46,027 bases of DNA, taken from the NCBI GenBank assembly GCA_013178415.1, contig JABLXA010000019.1, positions 1-46,027 of the forward strand. The letters are read 5' to 3'. Below are positions 28,633 through 39,328 of the stretch, one piece after another. Made by a program: the position numbers and the translations under genes. Within the stretch, counting starts at the first letter, position 1; each line of letters begins with the position of its first letter. The notes under the pieces were generated by a model. It had not been told where the DNA came from. It ran no database searches and worked only from the letters and a program-made list of their open reading frames with translations. This stretch comes from Bacillota bacterium. Its GTDB lineage: Bacteria; Bacillota; SHA-98; Ch115.

Positions 28633-29688
28633 CTATTTGGCCTGTGTTGTTAACTGGATCTGGAGCCTGAGCCGGGTTTGAAGCTCGTCACAGGATCCGC
28701 GCTGAGCTATGCACTGGAGAGCTACTTTCTCAGCTGTCTCCGCATCCACCCCGGCAAGAACAGCTCCCTGCACCGCCGCAGCAATCTTCGCAGTCTCCTC
28801 GACAGAATAGCCTGACTGTATCGCTGCCCTGACACACTCTTCTATATTGACATGGATCCGGGTTCTCAAGCGGAGCCTTTCCTGGTAGGAAGCCCCGCCG
28901 GCCTGGACCTGCGTTTGGTCCTGGGTTTGATTCTGGGTCCGGGTCTGAGTCTGAGTCTGAGTTTGGGTCTGAGCTTGAGCCTGAGTCATGGTCTGGGCTT
29001 GAGTTTGGGCCTGGTGAGTCTGAGCCTGAATCTGACCTTGGTAAGTGGCATTGAGTTCTTTGCGCAACTGCGCCTCGAGCCTGGTTCTTATCTGGGCTGA
29101 TATCTCGTTCATGGCGCGGATCCTCATACATAAGGCCTCAACCTGCTCGTTCATTTCAGCCTCCAGCTCGCCACTAATTATGGCATCAGCCCCCCCACTA
29201 CCTGAAGCACCTGAGCCCGGGCCAGCCTGAGCCTGTGTCTGGTTCTGGCCATTGCTACCCATGTCATCTTCGCCGGGAGATCCCACCAGATTCCAATTGT
29301 CCCCATTATCCTCATCATCGATATCCACCTTGAGCCCTGCCGGAGCATTCCCACCGATATTCGAACCGAAACCGCCATTCCCTCCATTCCCTGAACTGGC
29401 GCCATTCCCCGCGCTAGATTCAATCCCGGCGTCAGCTCCATTCCCTGTGCCAGTTCCACTCTCGATGCCAGCCCCATTCCCGCCACCATTGGGTCCTCCG
29501 CCTGACTTCCCTGCACCTACAGTCCCACTGCCGCCGGCCTTAGGTCCGGGGCCAGCTGCATATGCCATTCCCCTGGTAAATGATATCATGCCCAAAAAAG
29601 TCACAAACACTGTTATAATCACCAGCGCCCCAAGCGCCGACAACCTCCTCTTTGCGCCAATGTTTTTCCTGACCGATTTCGCCATCAT
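28633..29688 (-). CDS. Secreted Gly-rich, Gln/Thr-repeat protein
   Basis: 351 residues, unlike any family I know. A signal peptide (positively charged 4-15, hydrophobic 17-37, then RGMAYAAG) leads to a Gly/Asn/Ser-rich stretch (45-118). An acidic patch (121-142, DIDDEDNGD) follows. A helix-prone region (173-215) comes next, then a Gln/Thr tract (218-262, e.g. QAQTQTQTQTQTRTQ) and a C-terminal helical part with two cysteines and EETAKIAAAVQGAVLAGV. There is no LPXTG, membrane anchor or lipobox, so it is exported, and the tract could form adhesive or fibrillar structure (inference). GGGAG precedes ATG 29688. It is the last gene of the cAMP cluster, with two CRP sites upstream. Confidence 0.85.
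   Translation of the reverse strand: MMAKSVRKNIGAKRRLSALGALVIITVFVTFLGMISFTRGMAYAAGPGPKAGGSGTVGAGKSGGGPNGGGNGAGIESGTGTGNGADAGIESSAGNGASSGNGGNGGFGSNIGGNAPAGLKVDIDDEDNGDNWNLVGSPGEDDMGSNGQNQTQAQAGPGSGASGSGGADAIISGELEAEMNEQVEALCMRIRAMNEISAQIRTRLEAQLRKELNATYQGQIQAQTHQAQTQAQTMTQAQAQTQTQTQTQTRTQNQTQDQTQVQAGGASYQERLRLRTRIHVNIEECVRAAIQSGYSVEETAKIAAAVQGAVLAGVDAETAEKVALQCIAQRGSCDELQTRLRLQIQLTTQAK
28903..29037 (-). repeat. Gln/Thr codon repeat tract
   Basis: In-frame array of hexanucleotide-like CAGACT/CAGACC/CAAACT units encoding alternating Gln and Thr (or Ala), residues 218-262 of the secreted protein. Units of six bases keep the frame if copies are gained or lost, so length could vary between strains. 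Confidence 0.8.
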
Positions 29689-29997
29689 GAAATCTCACTC
29701 CCCCGTTATGATATTCTGCCGCAGGATGCCACGATGTTCTGCCGCGTCCATGCGAATTGCCATAGTTGGCTATGTAAGACGGGCTCGGCTGATCCCTCGA
29801 GGCTCTATTCCCCGGAATTCCTGCCCATATCAACATGGACGCCGCAGGCTCTGGCATTGCCTTCAATTTCATATTAGGGTACAAACGGGAAGAGATTTGT
29901 GGGCTCCGTCACAGGGATTTCGTGATCTTCATCACATTTTGACTATAGATATACAGGACAAACCCAAACCTAAAACATACGGTCTAATGAGAGCGGA
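29689..29997 (-). promoter_or_regulatory. Control region with tandem CRP sites and -10
   Basis: Two near-consensus CRP sites (TGTGA-N6-TCACA) face the Gln/Thr-repeat gene. Site 1 (29898-29913) reads TGTGACGGAGCCCACA on the minus strand, one mismatch. Site 2 (29921-29936) reads TGTGATGAAGATCACG, one mismatch, with AAA flanking it on the left. A -10-like TAATAT sits at 29871-29876. With its last base at -7 the start is 29864, so site 1 centres at -41.5 and site 2 at -64.5. Site 1 thus covers the -35, the class II CRP-activator geometry. The centres are 23 bases apart. The start point would lie 176 bases before the ATG, a long leader. No -35 is seen. Confidence 0.7.
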
Positions 29998-30756
29998 TCA
30001 AAAGGAAAGCAGGCTGCGAAGGCTTTTTTCATCTATGATGATGATGTTCTTCTCGTGGATTTGAATTAGGCCGTCACTTTCCAGCTCAGCCAGAATGCGA
30101 CTCGCAGTTTCCCTGGTAACTCCCGAAAGGTTGGCGAGTTCCTGGTGAGTTAGCTTAAGGTCGATGGTATACCCATAAGGACCTGGTCTAGAATGCTTTC
30201 TCAAAAGATCCAGGAGGGTAGATACTATCCGGCTTCTCGCATCCCCGAAACTAAGATATTCGATCTGCTGATCAGCCTCACGGAGACGGGCCGTCAGGAC
30301 GCGAATGACCTTGAGAGCGATTTTCGGAATTGACGCCATAATGTCAAGGAAATGCTCTCTGGATATCATAATAAGCCTGGCGTCTTCGAGAGCCTGCGCT
30401 CCAGCGGAACGGGGGAACGCGTCAAGAAGGGACATCTCGCCGAAGCAGTCTCCTCTGGAGACCATCGCCAGCGTTTTTTCTCTTCCCCCGGCGGAGAGTC
30501 TATATATCCTGACAGCGCCATCCTTTACAATGAACATCGCGCCGCCAGGATCACCTTCGAAAAATATGTGATTTCCTTTTTTATAAATCCTCTCTTGCGC
30601 TATCGCTGCCACCCGCGCCAATTCCTCATCGGACAGGTCAGAAAATAGCTCAACCTGACGGAGGAACTCGGCCATGCTTCGTTCAGCTACCGAGTCATCC
30701 GCCTGATGCAATTGAGAATAATCGCTGTTACTTACTCTTCCCACGGCTCTCTCCAT
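29998..30756 (-). CDS. CRP/FNR-family transcription regulator
   Basis: 252 residues: a cyclic-nucleotide-binding beta-roll (about 36-145), a dimer helix and a C-terminal winged helix. The phosphate-binding cassette FGEMSLLDAFPRSAGA (105-120) has the G-E and R-S residues that hold the phosphate and ribose in E. coli CRP. The recognition helix has R215, E216 and R220 (TRETASR), the residues that read TGTGA. The T127/S128 positions of E. coli CRP are not obviously conserved, so cAMP is likely but not certain. Upstream of ATG 30756 is GAAGG, 3-5 bases away; it overlaps the FecR gene end by 29 bases. An internal ATG at 30675 (MAEFLRQ) is an alternative. Confidence 0.95.
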   Translation of the reverse strand: MERAVGRVSNSDYSQLHQADDSVAERSMAEFLRQVELFSDLSDEELARVAAIAQERIYKKGNHIFFEGDPGGAMFIVKDGAVRIYRLSAGGREKTLAMVSRGDCFGEMSLLDAFPRSAGAQALEDARLIMISREHFLDIMASIPKIALKVIRVLTARLREADQQIEYLSFGDARSRIVSTLLDLLRKHSRPGPYGYTIDLKLTHQELANLSGVTRETASRILAELESDGLIQIHEKNIIIIDEKSLRSLLSF

Positions 30757-31849
30757 GATCCTTCATATGATTCTCCCCGTGATTCTCTGCGGGATTTTCT
30801 CCAGGCGTCTCCCCGAGTCCCTCCCCGAGAGTCTCTTCGAGACCCTCCTCAGGATTCTCTCCGGAGCTCTTTCCGTAATCCTCCCCAGCCGTCTCCCCGT
30901 TTCCGCCGGCATTCGCCCCAATCTTCCCAACCTCATCTTTTACGTTATCAATCCATCTCTTTACGCCCTGCCACATCCGCTCTTCGTTAGAGGACATGGC
31001 AGCAGGTGGCTGAGGAGGCCTCCCCGGGTGAATCGCAGTTTCCTGCCCGGCCCCCACAATGACAGATTCACCCATGGCCGTCACCTCTACCAGGCCCTCG
31101 CGGACAGATACACCAGTCGCCATTGAAGGCAATACGTACGCAGAGAAAAGCGTTCCTCTTACCCCAATCGTGGCCGCATCGGTGATCACCTCGAAACCAG
31201 GGGGCGTATCCGAGGCTATTCCAAGCACCTGGAGGATCTTTATATATACCCTTCCGAAAAACAATCTTGTCCTGAGAACCACTCGAGACTCAAAGGGAGA
31301 TTCTTCCCTGTACCCCATTTGGGGTTTGAGGCCGCCCCCTTGCGCGACTTCGCCTTCTAGCCCTGAATCCTCCTGCATCCCGGAATCTACATGAGGCATG
31401 GCGGCAGAAATTGCCTCGAGCTGGAATTGGGTCTCTGGCTCGAGTCTTATCCAGCCCTTTAGCGGTCGAGCCCCCGGTCCGGGCCTGGCTCCAACTCGCT
31501 GCATAGACTCATAGACAACCTGAATCTCGGCCCACGAATTCTTTCCGGTACGGACCTTATCTGACGGTCCCAAGGGGAATCCACTTCCCACCACACGCCA
31601 GACCTTTTCCTTCCCCAGACAGACTTCCACCTTTCCTTCTACCCTGGATATGACGGCAGAGATAGCCGGCGCGGAAGCCACTGCAGTCCCCGTTCTTGAA
31701 TCCAGCTGGGCGCCCCGGGACAATGCGTGAGACAGTGAAAAAGAACATAGCGACAGCATGGCTATAAGGACAAGTAAGAGACCAGCCCTCATCTTCTCCA
31801 TATTGCGGAATTTCTGCTCCTGTTGGGAAAATCTTGATGGGCGTAGCAT
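30728..31849 (-). CDS. Exported FecR-domain protein
   Basis: 373 residues. A signal peptide or membrane helix (RAGLLLVLIAMLSLCSF, about 21-37) is followed by a FecR-like sensory domain: SRVEGKVEV, DKVRTGKNSWAEIQ, RVYIKILQVLGI, then ATIGVRGTLFSAYV and VREGLVEVTAMGESVIV (about 68-275). The extracellular FecR fold is best known for passing an outer-membrane signal to an anti-sigma partner; here no sigma factor is adjacent. Instead it lies 46 bases downstream of the cyclase. The C-terminus (about 315-373) is a hydrophilic run of GEN, GEGLGETPGENPAENHGENH units with no known fold. The start is uncertain: ATG 31849 has a weak ribosome site and internal ATGs are possible. Confidence 0.85.
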   Translation of the reverse strand: MLRPSRFSQQEQKFRNMEKMRAGLLLVLIAMLSLCSFSLSHALSRGAQLDSRTGTAVASAPAISAVISRVEGKVEVCLGKEKVWRVVGSGFPLGPSDKVRTGKNSWAEIQVVYESMQRVGARPGPGARPLKGWIRLEPETQFQLEAISAAMPHVDSGMQEDSGLEGEVAQGGGLKPQMGYREESPFESRVVLRTRLFFGRVYIKILQVLGIASDTPPGFEVITDAATIGVRGTLFSAYVLPSMATGVSVREGLVEVTAMGESVIVGAGQETAIHPGRPPQPPAAMSSNEERMWQGVKRWIDNVKDEVGKIGANAGGNGETAGEDYGKSSGENPEEGLEETLGEGLGETPGENPAENHGENHMKDHGESRGKSK

Positions 31850-31895
31850 TTATCCTGACGCCTCTTCTTTCTTTGCCACTGCCTTTTCCTTTTCT

Positions 31896-33986
31896 CTATT
31901 GTCCCGCCTGCCCGCAATTGGCCCCACATTGCCCACGCGCTATTGTTACCTTCCATATCTCCACCGGAATGCTCAGACCCCGCAATGTCATCTGCCCAAG
32001 CCCCTCGCAGAAGAGGATTTCCCACGGAATATGGGGCGTCTTATCCTTTTGCTCATACTCCGATTCGGACGACCCACTCTGGGCCGTAGTCCCATCCGCT
32101 TGCCCCCTGACCATATGGAAACTAGCGCCATCCATGAGGATTTCTTGAGGCCCTGCAAGCTCCTCTAGCCGACTTGCTATATTGACCGTATTTCCAATGG
32201 CCGTATAATCCATGCGCCTGCCGGTCCCTATATTCCCGACCACGGCATCGCCAGATGATATGCCAATCCCGACCCGCAGGCCATACTCCATCTTCCCTAC
32301 TTCATCCAGGATCTCAATAGCAGCTTTGATTGCCCGGGATGCATGGTCTTTTAGCGGCGCCGGCGCGCCAAAAATAGCCATTATGCCATCACCCATGAAT
32401 TTATCCAAAGCCCCACCCTCCCGGATCACCGCCTCCCCCATCACTTTGAGGTATTGATTCAGAACGTTCACTGCCATCTCAGGGTCTTTGACTGATGCAA
32501 ATGTCGTAAAACCCCTTATGTCTGCAAAAAGGATAGTCACCTTGCGACGCGATCCTCCGAGGGCGTATCCACCCGGGGCGGATAGGATCTCCCGGACGAC
32601 CTCCGGAGCCAGATACCGTTCAAAAGTCTTCCTCACTTCATAGCGTTTCTTTTTCTCGACGACCAGCGCCTGAACCAGAGTAGCAATGTATGAGACCGCT
32701 ATGGCTGTCACGACAGGCACTATATCTAGCCACAGGCCGTATCGCCAGAGAAGTGCGAATCCAGCGCCTATCGCGAATACCATCGATATGAGGGCCGGGA
32801 ACAGAGCATGAAGAAAAACAGGAAATCTACCGGCTCCCCAATCGCCTCCTACGTCTGCCCCGGGAATCCCGGGAACTCCAAAAGCCCCGGCTGCGCCCGC
32901 TGCTAGGCTCCCCGCCGCCATCATGCCCACTGTGACCAGAGGGCTCACTCTTTTGATGAAAGCGCCGGATAAAATGGTATCAAGCGCCATAGCGTTTATT
33001 CGCAGCCCCGATGTCACCCCTCCCGGGACAGAGAGAGGCGTTGGATAGAAATCTCTGAGTCCCCTGGCTTCCATGCCGATGATGACAGCTTTCCCCTTGA
33101 ATGTCTTACTGGGGATCTTTCCTGCCAGCACTTGATGATAGGGAACCACGAGCATGCCATGGCTGGATGGAGCCAGCCCACGGAGATAATTTATGAACAT
33201 GCTGCTAGTCGCGTCCAGCGGGATCCCGAGCGGCTTTCCGCCGTCCCCGACCAATTCAAGATACCGGCCCGGAGCCAGGTTCATAGATTTCTCCGAGATT
33301 CCCAGATAAACTCTGGCGAGCTCCACGGGCAGGGAGAGATATAACCTCCCCTCCCCTTTTACCGCGACGGGCACCCTTCGCACCATACCGTCATCATCAG
33401 TAAGAGCGACTATATGGCCGACCCCGGCGGCCGCTCTGCGCAACGGCTCCAAAGGCAGGATTTCACCGATCCCCTGGAAGAGCCTTGACCCCGGAGTCAT
33501 AAATTTGCCAGCGAAAGCCCCCGCAAGTACCACATTGCCTGACGCGATGCTTGCATCAGCCAACCTTTTGTCCCCTATTATATCTTTCGTGTCTGGTTCG
33601 GAAAACATTATATCAAAACCTATTGCCTTTGCACCCGCTCGCGACAGGATTTCCGTCAATCTCGCATGAATCGAACGGGGCCACGGCCATTGGCCGATCT
33701 GTTGTAGAGAAGCATCATCAATTACCACTAGAACTACGGGAGAATCTCCATTCAAGCTGCGTTGAGAGGAAAATATGCGTGCCCCAGCTCTCATTCTGAC
33801 ATCATAGGTCATGAGTTCCAAGGGTTCAAAGGTGCCTTTCAGAAAGAGCAAAATCAGCAGCAATAAAATCGAGAGACCCAGTTTGAGATGAGAAATCCAT
33901 CCCGGCGAACCCGCATCGCCACCTGACACAAGTAAAGCTCGAATTGCTCCGGCCACGGGAGCGACTATGCGGCCCGGCCTTTTCAA
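31896..33986 (-). CDS. CHASE2-domain class III adenylate cyclase
   Basis: 696 residues: membrane helix (about 33-50), extracellular CHASE2 sensor (about 55-345, with VVLVVIDDASLQQIGQWPWPR and AIGFDIMFSEPD), three more helices (about 347-440), then a cytoplasmic class III catalytic domain (482-660). Key residues are present: metal aspartates D489 (FADIRGFT) and D533, K529 (LDKFMGDG), D593 (RMDYTAIG), N599 and R606 (NTVNIASRLE). The Lys/Asp pair indicates ATP rather than GTP. CHASE2 is thought to sense an extracellular signal. The start is TTG 33986 with GGGAGGGGAG just upstream. It probably makes cAMP for the CRP-type regulator two genes downstream. Confidence 0.95.
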   Translation of the reverse strand: MKRPGRIVAPVAGAIRALLVSGGDAGSPGWISHLKLGLSILLLLILLFLKGTFEPLELMTYDVRMRAGARIFSSQRSLNGDSPVVLVVIDDASLQQIGQWPWPRSIHARLTEILSRAGAKAIGFDIMFSEPDTKDIIGDKRLADASIASGNVVLAGAFAGKFMTPGSRLFQGIGEILPLEPLRRAAAGVGHIVALTDDDGMVRRVPVAVKGEGRLYLSLPVELARVYLGISEKSMNLAPGRYLELVGDGGKPLGIPLDATSSMFINYLRGLAPSSHGMLVVPYHQVLAGKIPSKTFKGKAVIIGMEARGLRDFYPTPLSVPGGVTSGLRINAMALDTILSGAFIKRVSPLVTVGMMAAGSLAAGAAGAFGVPGIPGADVGGDWGAGRFPVFLHALFPALISMVFAIGAGFALLWRYGLWLDIVPVVTAIAVSYIATLVQALVVEKKKRYEVRKTFERYLAPEVVREILSAPGGYALGGSRRKVTILFADIRGFTTFASVKDPEMAVNVLNQYLKVMGEAVIREGGALDKFMGDGIMAIFGAPAPLKDHASRAIKAAIEILDEVGKMEYGLRVGIGISSGDAVVGNIGTGRRMDYTAIGNTVNIASRLEELAGPQEILMDGASFHMVRGQADGTTAQSGSSESEYEQKDKTPHIPWEILFCEGLGQMTLRGLSIPVEIWKVTIARGQCGANCGQAGQ

Positions 33987-33999
33987 AAGGACTCCCCTC

Positions 34000-34018
34000 C
34001 CGGGTTATTATACCATGT
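34000..34018 (-). promoter_or_regulatory. Promoter of the cyclase operon
   Basis: On the minus strand a perfect extended -10 (TGGTATAAT, hexamer at 34007-34012) would start transcription near 34000, only about 14 bases before the TTG of the cyclase. A weak TTCCCA sits 17 bases upstream as the -35, as is usual for extended -10 promoters. Confidence 0.6.
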
Positions 34019-34343
34019 TTCCTGTTCTATGGGAAAGACGGAAATTTATTCATGAAATACTATCGAGATTATTGACATTTCCCACATCAGGCTAGCTGGG
34101 TAAAATAACCATGCTTATTTGCATTCTCTGGCAGGGAAAAGCTAGATAGGGACGAATATATTCTTAATAGACTCTCATACTGCTAGTGATGACGAAAACC
34201 GCAGCGCGCATTCTTTGGGTCAGTCCCTATGCCGGCCCAACTGACGCCATCAAAGAGGGAGATCTTTTCATGTCAATGAGATTAAAGGACCCGGTCAGCG
34301 GATTCAGCCATCTATTTGGTAGCCTGAGCCATTTCTACTTTAT
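34019..34343. other. Gene-free stretch between cyclase and dehydrogenase genes
   Basis: No gene is supported. It lies downstream of the exopolysaccharide operon and upstream of the cyclase promoter, all on the minus strand. GTCAGT...ACTGAC (about 34219-34245) is a loose inverted repeat that might end the upstream transcript. I see no clear U-tract. Confidence 0.35.
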
Positions 34344-35729
34344 CTACCTTCTAGCGTGAAATGAAAGGGAGTGCCCATATGAGATACTCTGATAGTCGAC
34401 AGGGTCCGGGGCGCCAAGCTTTATGATTTTCGGGCTGTTTATGCCCTTGAAGGCATTCCTGGTATCAAGTATCAACATCGAGTGCTCTTCAATCCATCTA
34501 TAGTCGTAAACCGAATGATCAGTGCAGAGAACAACACAATCTGCAGCTTTCAGCTGCTCCTCAGTCAATTCAATGGATTCCACCACCTCACCGTTGAAGA
34601 GGATATTCCTGCAGTATGGGTCATGATAGGCTACCAGGGCTCCCTCCCCCCTGAGTAAACGGTATATCTCCAGGGCGGGGGACTCTCGTATATCATCGAT
34701 GTCTCGTTTGTATGCCAATCCCAGGAGAAGTATGCTCGCTCCTTTTATATCCTTTCCCTCTCTTTTGAGCGCCTGGCAGACCCTATATATGACATGCCCC
34801 GGCATGCTTCTGTTGATATCGCTCGCCAACTCAATAAATCTCTCATAGAAACCTAGACGTTCGGCCTTCCAGGATAGGTAGATTGGATCCAGCGGTATAC
34901 AGTGGCCGCCCACCCCAGGCCCGGGGTAAAATGGCATGAAGCCAAAAGGCTTCGATGACGCGGCGTCTATGGTTTCCCATATATCCACTCCTATGCGTTC
35001 GCAAAGCAAGGCCATTTCGTTTATAAGGGCTATATTGACACTGCGGAAGGTGTTTTCAATGAGCTTGACCATCTCGGCCGTTGTTGCGGAACTGACAGGT
35101 ATAACCCGAGAAATAAATGTTCCGTATAATAGCGACCCTAGCCTCGTACACTCAGGCGTAACTCCACCTACCACTTTCGGTATATCGCTCATTTTAAACT
35201 TAGGATTTCCTGGATCTACTCTTTCAGGAGAAAAACAAATGAAGACATCCGTCCCGGCGCGATAGCCCATAGCCTCGAAGGAATCCTGTAGAAGTTCTTC
35301 GGTGGTCCCTGGATAGGTTGTGCTTTCAAGGACGATAAGCATTCCCCTATGGGCATGCATTTTCAAAGCATTCACCGCTGACACCAAATATGTTAGATCG
35401 GGAACCTTCTCTTTTCCAACGGGAGTCGGTACGCATATGCTGACGGTATCCGCCCTGCTTAGACGATCAAAATCTTGGATGGGTTCCAGCATGCCCGATG
35501 ATACTGCTTGCTGAACGTCGGTTTCTGGCACGTCAATTATGTAAGACTTACCCTCAGTGAGCAGCCTGATCTTCTCCGGATTCACATCTATGCCCGTCAC
35601 ATGAAATCCAGCTTTACACATTGCTATAGCAAGTGGCAACCCCACATATCCTAGTCCGATCACTGCTGCACTGGCACGCCTTGAGAGGATTTTGGCTTCC
35701 AACTCTCTGGCTACAGAATCACCAGACAT
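34344..35729 (-). CDS. Nucleotide-sugar dehydrogenase (UDP-HexNAc type)
   Basis: 461-residue NAD-dependent dehydrogenase that oxidises C6 of a UDP-sugar twice to the uronic acid. Rossmann motif GLGYVGLPLA (25-34), E135 in LESTTYPGTTEEL, a VKLIENTFRSVNIALINE stretch with K222 and N226, and the catalytic C277 in GPGVGGHCIPLDP are present. The family with this pattern (WbpA/WbpO, UDP-GlcNAc or UDP-ManNAc) differs from UDP-glucose dehydrogenase; which hexose it uses cannot be decided. It overlaps the glycosyltransferase gene by 11 bases, so translation is coupled. It supplies the activated uronic acid for the polymer. Confidence 0.93.
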   Translation of the reverse strand: MSGDSVARELEAKILSRRASAAVIGLGYVGLPLAIAMCKAGFHVTGIDVNPEKIRLLTEGKSYIIDVPETDVQQAVSSGMLEPIQDFDRLSRADTVSICVPTPVGKEKVPDLTYLVSAVNALKMHAHRGMLIVLESTTYPGTTEELLQDSFEAMGYRAGTDVFICFSPERVDPGNPKFKMSDIPKVVGGVTPECTRLGSLLYGTFISRVIPVSSATTAEMVKLIENTFRSVNIALINEMALLCERIGVDIWETIDAASSKPFGFMPFYPGPGVGGHCIPLDPIYLSWKAERLGFYERFIELASDINRSMPGHVIYRVCQALKREGKDIKGASILLLGLAYKRDIDDIRESPALEIYRLLRGEGALVAYHDPYCRNILFNGEVVESIELTEEQLKAADCVVLCTDHSVYDYRWIEEHSMLILDTRNAFKGINSPKIIKLGAPDPVDYQSISYGHSLSFHARR

Positions 35730-37047
35730 GAAACCACCGCCCTTCTATTGGCCCAACCCCATCACTTTGGAACCCAGACCCCGCCTTAACTTGCCGCACC
35801 TGTCGCGTCCCCCAGCTAGTATCAGTCGAATTCAGGATGGCCTGGTAGATCTGCCATGAAAATACAAATGCATTTAGGAAAACAAACACAAAGGCATACA
35901 GCCAAAGCCCATCTCGCCGATGAATCCGGTAATACAGCCCGTAAAGAGCCCCAAGAATCATAAGGCCGGCAAGATAACCCCATCGGGTGGCGGGGCTCAT
36001 GACGAGCGAACGAATGAGCACAATAGGTGAACAAAGCGTAAAGAAAACCGACAAATAGTAGGGTATAGATGCCCCGGGATTCCTCCGCCACATATGGGTA
36101 ACAGCGATTAGGGTCTCGCGAAACCATGATTTTTTCCACCTGAGTTGCTGCCGGAAATACCCTCTCCAAGTTTCAGGAACTATAGTCCGGACTATCGCAT
36201 CTGACATATACAAGAGAGAATATCCCTCTCTGAGCAAGAGATTCGTCAGGCTACGATCATCACCAAAGGTACACCTCTTGCCGAGGAAAGTCTGGTTTTT
36301 CCATCTCTCCAGGACCTTCAGCACCGCGCTCCGACGATATGCTGAGTAACATCCGGAGCAGCACGTAACACTTTTGAAGACACTTTCAGACGCCTTGATA
36401 ATGCGGAATGAGACAAAATATCTGACTGCCTGCATTTTGGTAAGCAGGTTGCGTTCCTTGTTTAAGACATCAGCATGCCCTACAACAGCGCCAACCTTGG
36501 GATCTGCAAAAGCTCTAACCAGAGGAACAAGGGACCCCGGCTCTATAACGCTATCAGAGTCAATGAACACCACTATTTCGGATTCCGAGCGGCATATGCC
36601 CTCGACCATTGCGGAACGCTTGCCGCGATTGACATCCCAGTTTATAGCCTCCACCTGGGGAAACATGTCCGCGGCACGGGCAATCTCCTGCCAGGTCCCG
36701 TCTGTCGAACCGTCATTTACCACGATGATCCGAAGCTGGCCAGGCGGGTAACCTACCGTGCAGCATGCCTGGATTGTCTTGAAGATGGCCTTCTCTTCAT
36801 TCATCGCAGGGATTACAATTGTTACGGACGGGTAGAAGTCCCTTGTAGTGCCTTCTGCAACCAATCGCTCAGGAGCGTAAAGTAGCAGGCAAAATAGACG
36901 AAACATCAGATAGGACGTGGCCATCAGGCCATATATACCGAAGACAGGATCATTGTGTATGAATCTGAGATGGTGAATCTTGAGTCTTATCAGTATCGCT
37001 ATGACCGCCAGCCAGAGGACAAAAACGGCTATGTCGTTTGTGGGCAT
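35719..37047 (-). CDS. Hyaluronan-synthase-like glycosyltransferase, GT2
   Basis: 442-residue membrane processive GT2. N-terminal membrane helices span 7-59. The catalytic domain has VTIVIPAMNEE (75-85), D112 of NDGSTDG, D163-x-D165 (DSDS), an SGCYSAYRR segment (231-239), G262-D-D (FGDDRSL) and the QxxRW product-binding motif at Q300-R303-W304. C-terminal membrane helices and a final SWGTRQ, the WGTR tail seen in hyaluronan and chitin synthases, follow. Such enzymes polymerise and export a beta-linked polysaccharide. Adjacent to a uronic-acid-forming dehydrogenase, a hyaluronan-like glycan is plausible, but polymer identity is inference. It follows the sensor kinase by about 70 bases. Confidence 0.9.
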   Translation of the reverse strand: MPTNDIAVFVLWLAVIAILIRLKIHHLRFIHNDPVFGIYGLMATSYLMFRLFCLLLYAPERLVAEGTTRDFYPSVTIVIPAMNEEKAIFKTIQACCTVGYPPGQLRIIVVNDGSTDGTWQEIARAADMFPQVEAINWDVNRGKRSAMVEGICRSESEIVVFIDSDSVIEPGSLVPLVRAFADPKVGAVVGHADVLNKERNLLTKMQAVRYFVSFRIIKASESVFKSVTCCSGCYSAYRRSAVLKVLERWKNQTFLGKRCTFGDDRSLTNLLLREGYSLLYMSDAIVRTIVPETWRGYFRQQLRWKKSWFRETLIAVTHMWRRNPGASIPYYLSVFFTLCSPIVLIRSLVMSPATRWGYLAGLMILGALYGLYYRIHRRDGLWLYAFVFVFLNAFVFSWQIYQAILNSTDTSWGTRQVRQVKAGSGFQSDGVGPIEGRWFHVW

Positions 37048-37120
37048 AAGTAAAATGCGAAGGCGTTCCCCCGGATGATCTGGTGCTCCTCAGCGTCTAC
37101 ACATTCTATAATTTCCTGCT

Positions 37121-38644
37121 CTACTCGCCCTCCTGTAGAACGATTGCTCGGGGCAGAATCACTTCAAATGTACTACCCTCACCAAGTCTGCTTCTTGCGG
37201 CGATGGAGCCTCCATGCAGCTCCGCTATGGTTTTCGCTATGGCTAGTCCCAGGCCTATGCCGCTTGTCATATCCATCCCATTTATGGAAGCCGCCCGAGA
37301 CCTTGAGCTGTCGACCCTGTAAAATCGATCGAAGATTCTCGGCAATTCCTCCTCAGGAATTCCAGGCCCCGTGTCAGAGATCATGACGTGGATGGAGTCA
37401 TCTTCCACCTTCATTTCTATTTTGATCCTCCCGCCGTGCGGGGTGTATTTTACCGCATTGTCAACGATATTCCTGAACATCCGCATGAGTTGAACTCTAT
37501 CCCCATTTACTATATATGTCTGCAACCTTGCAGTAGCTGGCGCACATTCTATGTCTATCTCCTTTAATGACGCTAGTCTTACTCCATAGTCAAAGACATC
37601 CCCCAGCAAAGTACTCAAATCGACCGGCGCAACATTCAGTTTCATCTGGCGGAAATCTGCCCGCGCAAAAAACAGAAGGTCATCGATAATATGGGAAAGC
37701 CTGCTCGCCTCATCTCTTACATTCAAAAGAGCTGCACGACATTTTTCCATGGTAGGATTTGGATCCCTTAATGCTATATCTGCAGCGCTTCTTATGACAG
37801 TGAGAGGCGTGCGGAGCTCATGTGAGACATCGGCTGTAAACTGCCGTTCCTTCTGAAACTGATCATCCAAACGGCCCAACATCTCATTGAAAGTGCGGGC
37901 CAACCGTCCCACTTCATCATCTACGTTCTGTAAATCTAGTCTCAAGCTCAGATCTTTGGCAGTGATCTTTCGCGCGGTTCGAGTTATGGCGTCAATTGGC
38001 GCAAGGGCCCGCCACGCCATCAGGTATCCGGTTATCCCCGCAAGAACGAGAGCCCCCAGGATGAGAGATCCAAGTATGAGCCGCAGGCGTGTCAAGGTGG
38101 ATTCCAATGTAAAGAGTGATCGACCTACAACCACAACGCCAACCTGTTCACCCCTCATTTCAAGGGGAACGCACAGGAAGCGAATGGCCTCCTTTTCGCT
38201 TGCTCTCAGGGTGCCGATCACCGAATCTCCATGCAGAGCCGGACCAATGACATCAGGTCCTGCAGGCAGAACTTTGCTTGAATCTCCTGAGGTGGCTCTG
38301 ATATGCCCGGCCATATCCAATATGATAAATGGGATGTTCGTCGAGGTTGAAGACAAATGTGTTCTGCCTGATATTCTGGGGTGGTCTGCACTGCCGTTGG
38401 CGATTGTAAGCCCGTCTGGACCAACGTCGATTGTGGCTTCAATTTGCTCAGTCCTTGTCTGTAAGGCTGCGTCAAGATCACTGTAAAGACTCCTTTCCAT
38501 GGATACATATACAAGGACACTGAATCCGATAAGCATGGCGGCAAGCAGAAAAACATACCAAGCAGTGAGTCGCGTGCGAACGTTCGTCAAGCAGATCTTG
38601 ATTTTCGAGAACGCTTCAGAGGATGTTCTTACTATATGGTTCAT
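37121..38644 (-). CDS. Sensor histidine kinase
   Basis: 507 residues: TM1 about 27-49, an extracytoplasmic sensor about 50-185, TM2 about 186-210, HAMP 211-262, then HisKA with the phospho-accepting H275 in DVSHELRTPL. The ATPase domain has NIVDNAVKYTP, DTGPGIPEEE, DRFYRVD and GIGLGLAIAKTIAELHG. It phosphorylates the response regulator encoded directly before it: the RR stop TAA is immediately followed by this gene's ATG. The signal is unknown. The next genes in the operon make polysaccharide, so that is the likely regulated output. Confidence 0.96.
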   Translation of the reverse strand: MNHIVRTSSEAFSKIKICLTNVRTRLTAWYVFLLAAMLIGFSVLVYVSMERSLYSDLDAALQTRTEQIEATIDVGPDGLTIANGSADHPRISGRTHLSSTSTNIPFIILDMAGHIRATSGDSSKVLPAGPDVIGPALHGDSVIGTLRASEKEAIRFLCVPLEMRGEQVGVVVVGRSLFTLESTLTRLRLILGSLILGALVLAGITGYLMAWRALAPIDAITRTARKITAKDLSLRLDLQNVDDEVGRLARTFNEMLGRLDDQFQKERQFTADVSHELRTPLTVIRSAADIALRDPNPTMEKCRAALLNVRDEASRLSHIIDDLLFFARADFRQMKLNVAPVDLSTLLGDVFDYGVRLASLKEIDIECAPATARLQTYIVNGDRVQLMRMFRNIVDNAVKYTPHGGRIKIEMKVEDDSIHVMISDTGPGIPEEELPRIFDRFYRVDSSRSRAASINGMDMTSGIGLGLAIAKTIAELHGGSIAARSRLGEGSTFEVILPRAIVLQEGE

Positions 38645-39328
38645 TTAGCTATTTGACCCACCCGAGACAAGACGATAGCCTTCACCACGGACCGTCTCCA
38701 ATAATCTAACATTGAAGCCTTCGTCGATCTTCCTTCTGAGGTAGCGGATGTAGACATCTACCAGATTAGAATTCGAGACGAAGCCATATCCCCATACATG
38801 TTCTTCGATAGCTCCACGAGTCACTATCTGATTTGGATGGCGCATCAGGTATTCGAGGATACGGTATTCAGTGCCAGAGAGCTGCACTCGCCTGTCGCCC
38901 CGTATAGCCTCATGCGTCGCAGTATCCAGACTAAGCTCCCCCACCGTCAAGTTTTCCGATTTCAATTCCCTGGCCCTGCGCAAGAGCGCCCGCAAACGCG
39001 CGACAAGTTCATCAAAGGAGAATGGCTTAGTGAGGTAGTCATCAGCTCCCGCATTTAGGCCTGCTACCTTGTCATTCACCTCATCTTTGGCCGTGAGGAT
39101 CAAAATCGGGGTTTCGTTGCCTTCCTCCCTGAGTCTGCGGCATACAGTAAGCCCATCCATCCCAGGAAGCATTAGATCGAGGATAATAACGTCATAGTCT
39201 GTGCATGAGGCCTGTTCATACGCCATATTTCCATCATGCGCCACATCAGCAGTGAAACCCTCATTCTCGAGTCCCTTCTTTATAAGGGATGCGAGTTTGA
39301 CTTCATCTTCGACCACCAGGGCAAGCAT
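38645..39328 (-). CDS. Response regulator, OmpR/PhoB family
   Basis: 227 residues: a receiver domain with acidic residues VEDE (6-9), phospho-acceptor D51 (LDLMLPG), T79 and K101 (LTKPF), then an OmpR-type winged helix (YRILEYLMRHPNQIVTR, VDVYIRYLRRKID, VRGEGYRL). It should activate or repress transcription on phosphorylation by the adjacent kinase. ATG 39328 has AAAGG 4 bases upstream. It is first of the RR-HK-GT2-dehydrogenase operon. Confidence 0.97.
   Translation of the reverse strand: MLALVVEDEVKLASLIKKGLENEGFTADVAHDGNMAYEQASCTDYDVIILDLMLPGMDGLTVCRRLREEGNETPILILTAKDEVNDKVAGLNAGADDYLTKPFSFDELVARLRALLRRARELKSENLTVGELSLDTATHEAIRGDRRVQLSGTEYRILEYLMRHPNQIVTRGAIEEHVWGYGFVSNSNLVDVYIRYLRRKIDEGFNVRLLETVRGEGYRLVSGGSNS

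Follow-up and report, generated by a model that had tools for sequence, protein, structure and literature searches.

In Sinorhizobium meliloti, a nitrogen-fixing root symbiont, the genes clr (SMc02175), cyaD1 (SMc02176), SMc02177, which encodes a FecR-domain protein and is activated by Clr, and SMc02178, which encodes a periplasmic protein and is a direct Clr target, lie side by side (PMC5498481). Clr depends on 3′,5′-cyclic AMP (cAMP), activates both SMc02177 and SMc02178, and drives succinoglycan synthesis (PMC5498481). The signal in this species goes through the outer-membrane protein NsrA (PMC13001267). In addition, the BiofilmReg operon of Burkholderia encodes a CHASE2 kinase together with a LysM-FecR protein (PMC5192318). 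Here we describe a gene cluster in a 46,027-nucleotide stretch of DNA (the window) from a Bacillota bacterium (assembly GCA_013178415.1, contig JABLXA010000019.1). Four open reading frames (ORFs) on the minus strand encode, in this order, a CHASE2-type class III nucleotide cyclase, an exported FecR-domain protein, a CRP-family regulator and a secreted repeat protein. This cluster is a Bacillota variant of the known set, and it differs in its operator, its gene order, its secreted target and its sole cyclase. We consider it probable that the four genes form an envelope signalling circuit of one cyclase and one receptor, in which the CHASE2 cyclase would make a cyclic nucleotide that acts through CRP on a class II promoter to yield a secreted protein. 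To our knowledge, Bacillota are generally regarded as lacking cAMP-CRP control.

Like the S. meliloti circuit, the window contains a class III cyclase whose catalytic residues are intact and which has a fused CHASE2 domain, an adjoining exported FecR protein, an adjoining CRP with a cyclic nucleotide pocket, and an adjoining exported target with an operator. The preliminary description of this DNA had stated that no system of this composition was known. This statement does not hold, and the S. meliloti genes are the same four kinds with experimental support (PMC5498481). The exported targets of the two systems are compared here by gene kind and position. However, the gene order differs, and class III cyclases number 28 in S. 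meliloti but one in the window genome. The S. meliloti CRP activates the target and FecR genes, and in the window a predicted operator likewise precedes the exported target gene. The operator in S. meliloti is the Clr-box HGTYHCNNNNGRWACW, and that of the window is TGTGA-N6-TCACA. Because of this operator, we do not class the window circuit as Clr type, although it may work like the Clr circuit. The BiofilmReg operon likewise encodes a CHASE2 sensor with an exported FecR-domain protein, but it acts through a histidine kinase and a response regulator and has neither cyclase nor CRP, and so the window, with CHASE2 fused to a cyclase, is not of this type. A literature search, with most subscription journals outside its coverage, found no paper that links Firmicutes to CHASE2 together with adenylate cyclase, or to class III cyclases together with CRP.

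The 3.57 Mb genome that contains the window as contig 19 (G000; 100% complete, 2.6% contamination) encodes an Omp85 protein. This makes an outer membrane likely, and the CHASE2 and FecR parts would then face a periplasm; the host is likely a double-membraned Bacillota. We found one CHASE2 protein and one class III cyclase in the genome, and both are the cyclase of the window. Two proteins with a cyclic nucleotide-binding (cNMP) domain are encoded, namely the window CRP and a CRP-family protein on contig 14 (G000:C14:26760-27023, L004). In the latter, DYS replaces the PRS of the pocket, and the R-E-R pattern of the recognition helix is missing. Thus, the window CRP is the sole evident candidate receptor for the sole class III cyclase. 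The contig 14 gene is flanked by genes for a CcdA-like membrane protein and a ferredoxin-like protein, and it perhaps encodes a redox-type regulator. The coordinates of the window features are collected in Table 1.

Table 1. Features of the CHASE2 cyclase, FecR and CRP cluster in the window
Feature	Position	Strand	Remarks
Secreted repeat protein	28633..29688	-	Signal peptide (judged by hydropathy alone), low-complexity segments rich in Gly and in Gln/Thr, C-terminal helical domain; CRP predicted to act on the gene directly
-10 hexamer of the repeat-protein promoter	29871..29876	-	TAATAT; 21 nt past the proximal CRP site
Promoter-proximal predicted CRP site	29898..29913	-	TGTGACGGAGCCCACA; centre -41.5, class II geometry
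Upstream predicted CRP site	29921..29936	-	TGTGATGAAGATCACG; centre about -64.5
CRP-family regulator	29998..30756	-	cNMP pocket FGEMSLLDAFPRSA from 30444; recognition helix TRETASRI from 30117
FecR-domain protein	30728..31849	-	Exported or membrane-anchored, 373 aa, hydrophobic segment 19-44; Pfam, fold, hydropathy
CHASE2-type transmembrane class III nucleotide cyclase	31896..33986	-	696 aa, TTG start; Pfam, hydropathy, solved relatives
Cyclase catalytic motifs	32163..32528	-	FADIRGFT 32505-32528; DKFMGDGIM 32379-32405; MDYTAIGNTVNIASRLE 32163-32213; aligned with CyaB, 3r5g
Predicted housekeeping promoter of the cyclase operon	34007..34035	-	TTCCCA-17-TATAAT, TG before -10

The gene order and strand given in the preliminary description stood. 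However, the repeat gene is separated from the CRP gene by 309 bp and has its own promoter, and thus it cannot be regarded as just the last gene of a four-gene operon. This gap contains two CRP sites, each with one mismatch, 23 bp apart. In class II CRP promoters the site centre lies at -41.5, given a -10 element at -12 to -7. The distance of 21 nt between the proximal site and the -10 hexamer thus puts the site in the class II position, and a site near -41.5 with a -10 element, where no good -35 element is required, is what the repeat gene has. Promoters of the Escherichia coli class II type share the TGTGA-N6-TCACA site, its centre at -41.5 and the -10 element downstream of it, but the window promoter has a tandem second site, lies in a Bacillota host, and its activation is predicted. 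The same 23-bp tandem arrangement is found in L103, and weaker copies are found in L102, L105, L107 and L109. The -10 hexamers of L102 and L103 are both TATAAT.

Homologues of the repeat protein lie at the equivalent place in L102 and L103, two members of a neighbouring family. The protein, described earlier as a secreted Gly-rich Gln/Thr-repeat protein, has a hydrophobic export segment; its Gly- and Gln/Thr-rich stretches are disordered, and its C-terminus is helical. It had no match to a Pfam family, and its predicted fold was too uncertain for a fold search (predicted template modelling score 0.29). We rejected homology to the secreted proteins of L105, L107 and L109 or of L183, L195 and L196, because profile comparison gave either no match or a low-complexity match of 28 columns (86%). 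Similarly, a likeness to L184 in an LCxRIRAM motif, seen by eye, was not confirmed by hidden Markov model search.

To test the operator without preselecting a motif, we used the DNA after the cyclase gene and after the CRP gene at 22 cyclase-FecR-CRP loci (44 regions) and counted all palindromes with 5-mer half-sites and a spacer of 0-11. TGTGA-N6-TCACA ranked first of 12,288 palindromes, with 22 of the 44 regions (mean 0.55, sd 0.93), and ranks 2-5 were shifted forms of it. At least one such site was present in 19 of the 22 loci. The site density was 64-fold higher in the gaps (24 sites in 16.5 kb) than in the flanks (9 sites in 399 kb), and three of the nine flank sites precede a secreted-protein gene that adjoins CRP in reverse orientation (L183, L195 and L196). 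Furthermore, when sites after CRP, sites in the cyclase-FecR gap and sites before the reversed secreted genes were analysed as three separate groups, each group showed a peak of -10 hexamers exactly 21 nt downstream of the sites. Many relatives have a CRP site in the cyclase-FecR gap, whereas the window has none there. In two similar loci (L180 near 4456 and L193 near 15078), a perfect site also lies upstream of the cyclase, at a comparable distance of about 5 kb.

The cyclase scored far over the Pfam cut-offs (CHASE2, 198 bits; Guanylate_cyc, 78.7 bits). Its hydrophobic segments by hydropathy are 28-59, 387-416 and 418-444, and the CHASE2 domain is predicted to lie between them, facing the periplasm. 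The catalytic set is complete, as the preliminary description had it, with the metal aspartates, the Lys/Thr specificity pair and the transition-state Asn/Arg in FADIRGFT, DKFMGDGIM and MDYTAIGNTVNIASR. The closest solved structures are the adenylate cyclases CyaB1 and CyaB, and the Lys/Thr substrate pair matches that of bacterial adenylate cyclases such as CyaB. The product, judged from these residues, is most likely cAMP.

The FecR protein scored 23.5 bits in Pfam against a cut-off of 24. Its assignment is nevertheless secure, since PF04773 was matched by all 30 aligned relatives and the fold agrees: no sequence match was found in the PDB, and a Foldseek search with the AlphaFold model gave probability 1.00 to the FecR-type anti-sigma structures 6ovk and 4m0h. 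The export of this protein, as described before, is borne out by its hydrophobic segment. FecR/PupR anti-sigma signalling proteins have the same periplasmic FecR fold. However, the window protein has no cytoplasmic anti-sigma domain, its N-terminus being the hydrophobic export segment, and no extracytoplasmic function (ECF) sigma factor or TonB receptor gene adjoins it, its neighbours being the cyclase and CRP genes; it is thus not placed among the FecR/PupR systems. The frequent pairing of the two genes makes it probable that the protein serves the CHASE2 receptor as an accessory or partner.

The CRP protein matched cNMP_binding with 91.5 bits and also Crp HTH. Among solved structures, it fits 7pza (102 bits), which we take to be S. 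meliloti Clr, better than E. coli CRP (72 bits). Judged from the ribosome-binding site, its start is likely GTG 30744 and not ATG 30756, and the start of the gene overlaps the end of the FecR gene. The R-E-R pattern reported earlier is present in the recognition helix, and the pocket has both G-E and R-S. These pocket residues suggest that the protein binds a cyclic nucleotide.

The linkage of the genes was studied in a class sample of 17 genomes, 10 of which have the cyclase, and in an even phylum sample of 398 Bacillota genomes, 46 of which have CHASE2 (36 of them outside the class). The search for conserved neighbourhoods that had been suggested earlier found the same-strand order cyclase-FecR-CRP in 9 of the 10 cyclase-bearing class members and in 13 of the 36 genomes outside the class; one more (L189) has cyclase-CRP, and several of the remaining loci are cut by contig ends or have no clear cyclase domain. 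L188 was dropped as a cyclase-CRP locus because no Crp HTH could be recognised in its cNMP protein. Since the same-strand order recurs across the class and the phylum, it is more than chance. Protein distances for the three gene products are correlated with one another (r 0.90-0.93), a pattern that fits an operon passed on by vertical descent. At the nearest loci outside Bacillota, including many of Armatimonadota/Zipacnadia and those of Alphaproteobacteria, the cyclase gene commonly adjoins the FecR gene as in the window, but no CRP gene adjoins them. On the Shinella plasmid p1 (L207, 3266-11462), a FecR-CHASE2 cyclase pair lies directly ahead of NHLP bacteriocin export genes.

In the proposed mechanism, a constitutive promoter (34035-34007), which has no CRP site nearby, would drive the cyclase, FecR and CRP genes. 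A periplasmic condition sensed by CHASE2 would switch on the cytoplasmic cyclase, and the cyclic nucleotide, most likely cAMP, would be bound by the CRP of the same operon. CRP on the tandem sites would then activate the repeat gene from -41.5, where the geometry is observed and the activation is predicted, and the secreted low-complexity and helical protein would be made. Meanwhile, the FecR protein would be exported and may assist the CHASE2 receptor. In many relatives, the extra CRP promoter in the cyclase-FecR gap would give positive feedback on FecR and CRP, whereas in the window both would be expressed from the cyclase promoter. The S. meliloti precedent shows that such a gene set works.

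Several observations weigh against this circuit. First, one-mismatch TGTGA sites are in excess in the window genome (96 versus 34 in the control), and the window CRP may have other targets there. In genus g5 of the class, the genomes have 4-8 perfect sites versus 0-1 in the control, and a second, unlinked class II target is kept in six of them (L214, L215, L216, L217, L218 and L227). CRP might therefore be a general regulator that merely lies beside the cyclase, with the repeat gene as one of many targets and no dedicated circuit. We consider this unlikely. When a composite class II pattern was searched (site, 21 nt, TANNNT, one mismatch allowed), it occurred four times in G000, against two in the reversed control, and its single occurrence in G003 is the promoter of the repeat gene. 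Among the other sampled site loci, one only has a -10 element at the class II distance, and the 64-fold enrichment falls in the cluster's own gaps. The self-contained circuit of the preliminary description therefore stands in its sole class III cyclase, sole pocket-bearing CRP, kept linkage and class II operators; it is not always closed, since the CRP of relatives has unlinked targets, and its cAMP is an inference.

Second, the window CRP has A-D at the adenine-contacting C-helix positions that correspond to T127 and S128 of E. coli CRP, which would be compatible with a different nucleotide or with a constitutive CRP. In addition, its nearest solved relative is the Thermus CRP 4ev0, and this protein is not known to need an effector. 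Thus, the messenger might be cyclic GMP or another product, or CRP might need no ligand and expression would be set by the CRP level alone. This seems quite improbable to us, given the CyaB-like Lys/Thr pair of the cyclase. Among the CRP relatives, the pocket Arg-Ser is invariant and the Gly-Glu nearly so, and most of them have T-N at the T127-S128 positions, as in Mycobacterium tuberculosis CRP. The S. meliloti regulator Clr, introduced above, is also 3′,5′-cAMP-dependent.

Third, one class member (G001) has cyclase-CRP without FecR, and operon linkage alone could explain the co-inheritance of the three genes. Finally, the FecR protein of S. meliloti is dispensable for signal perception (PMC5498481), which argues against a simple receptor role for FecR.

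Upstream of the module, the window (34344-39328) has genes that may form a polysaccharide unit. They encode a UDP-sugar dehydrogenase, a GT2 glycosyltransferase, a HAMP histidine kinase and a response regulator. The module might mainly control envelope polysaccharide or biofilm, as in BiofilmReg, with the repeat protein as a matrix component and these ugd and glycosyltransferase neighbours included. The CHASE2-FecR pairing in the biofilm operon (PMC5192318), the succinoglycan synthesis driven by Clr and the position of the dehydrogenase and GT2 genes directly upstream are in line with this. We nevertheless judge it improbable, because tblastn found no polysaccharide genes adjoining the module in relatives, a seryl-tRNA-synthetase-like ORF precedes the module in L103, and in the window no CRP site lies ahead of the polysaccharide genes.

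The exported products vary by lineage. There is the repeat-protein family in the taxonomic order of the window, Asp/Asn/Gly-rich proteins in three g5 genomes, and the GWG family, which is secreted and has repeated GWGEI motifs and a Gly/Lys tail. The GWG family adjoins the cyclase locus in one lineage (L183 12978-13940, L195 5905-6684 and L196 13233-13949; no Pfam match for these three copies) and is the unlinked class II target of the six g5 genomes. The window genome encodes two GWG-family proteins (G000:C28:1371-2120, L243; G000:C8:107018-107797, L248), and no CRP site was found before either gene. Elsewhere, the gene after CRP encodes a DegS-like histidine kinase (L180 13174-14337, confirmed by Pfam), with similar ORFs in L193, L198, L204 and L189. 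A CRP site lies ahead of this gene in L180 and L193, and that of L193 has a good -10 element at the class II distance. Common to most outputs is that the product is exported and combines a small helical domain with a disordered tail.

More speculatively, and with considerable doubt, the CHASE2-cyclase/FecR/CRP set may be an old general module for envelope sensing, in which FecR, as an extracytoplasmic partner, would relay the signal to CHASE2 and CRP-cAMP would yield secreted low-complexity or helical proteins and more FecR and CRP. The loop would be closed in Bacillota, and the symbiosis circuit of S. meliloti would be a specialised offshoot. If the circuit proposed here is true, Bacillota would have a sequence-supported cAMP-CRP circuit made up of one cyclase, one receptor and a defined output promoter, and it would be a simple system for the study of CHASE2 sensing without the 28 cyclases of S. 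meliloti. As CHASE2, FecR and CRP recur together in two phyla, the role of FecR for the CHASE2 receptor and the purpose of the exported targets would become testable questions.

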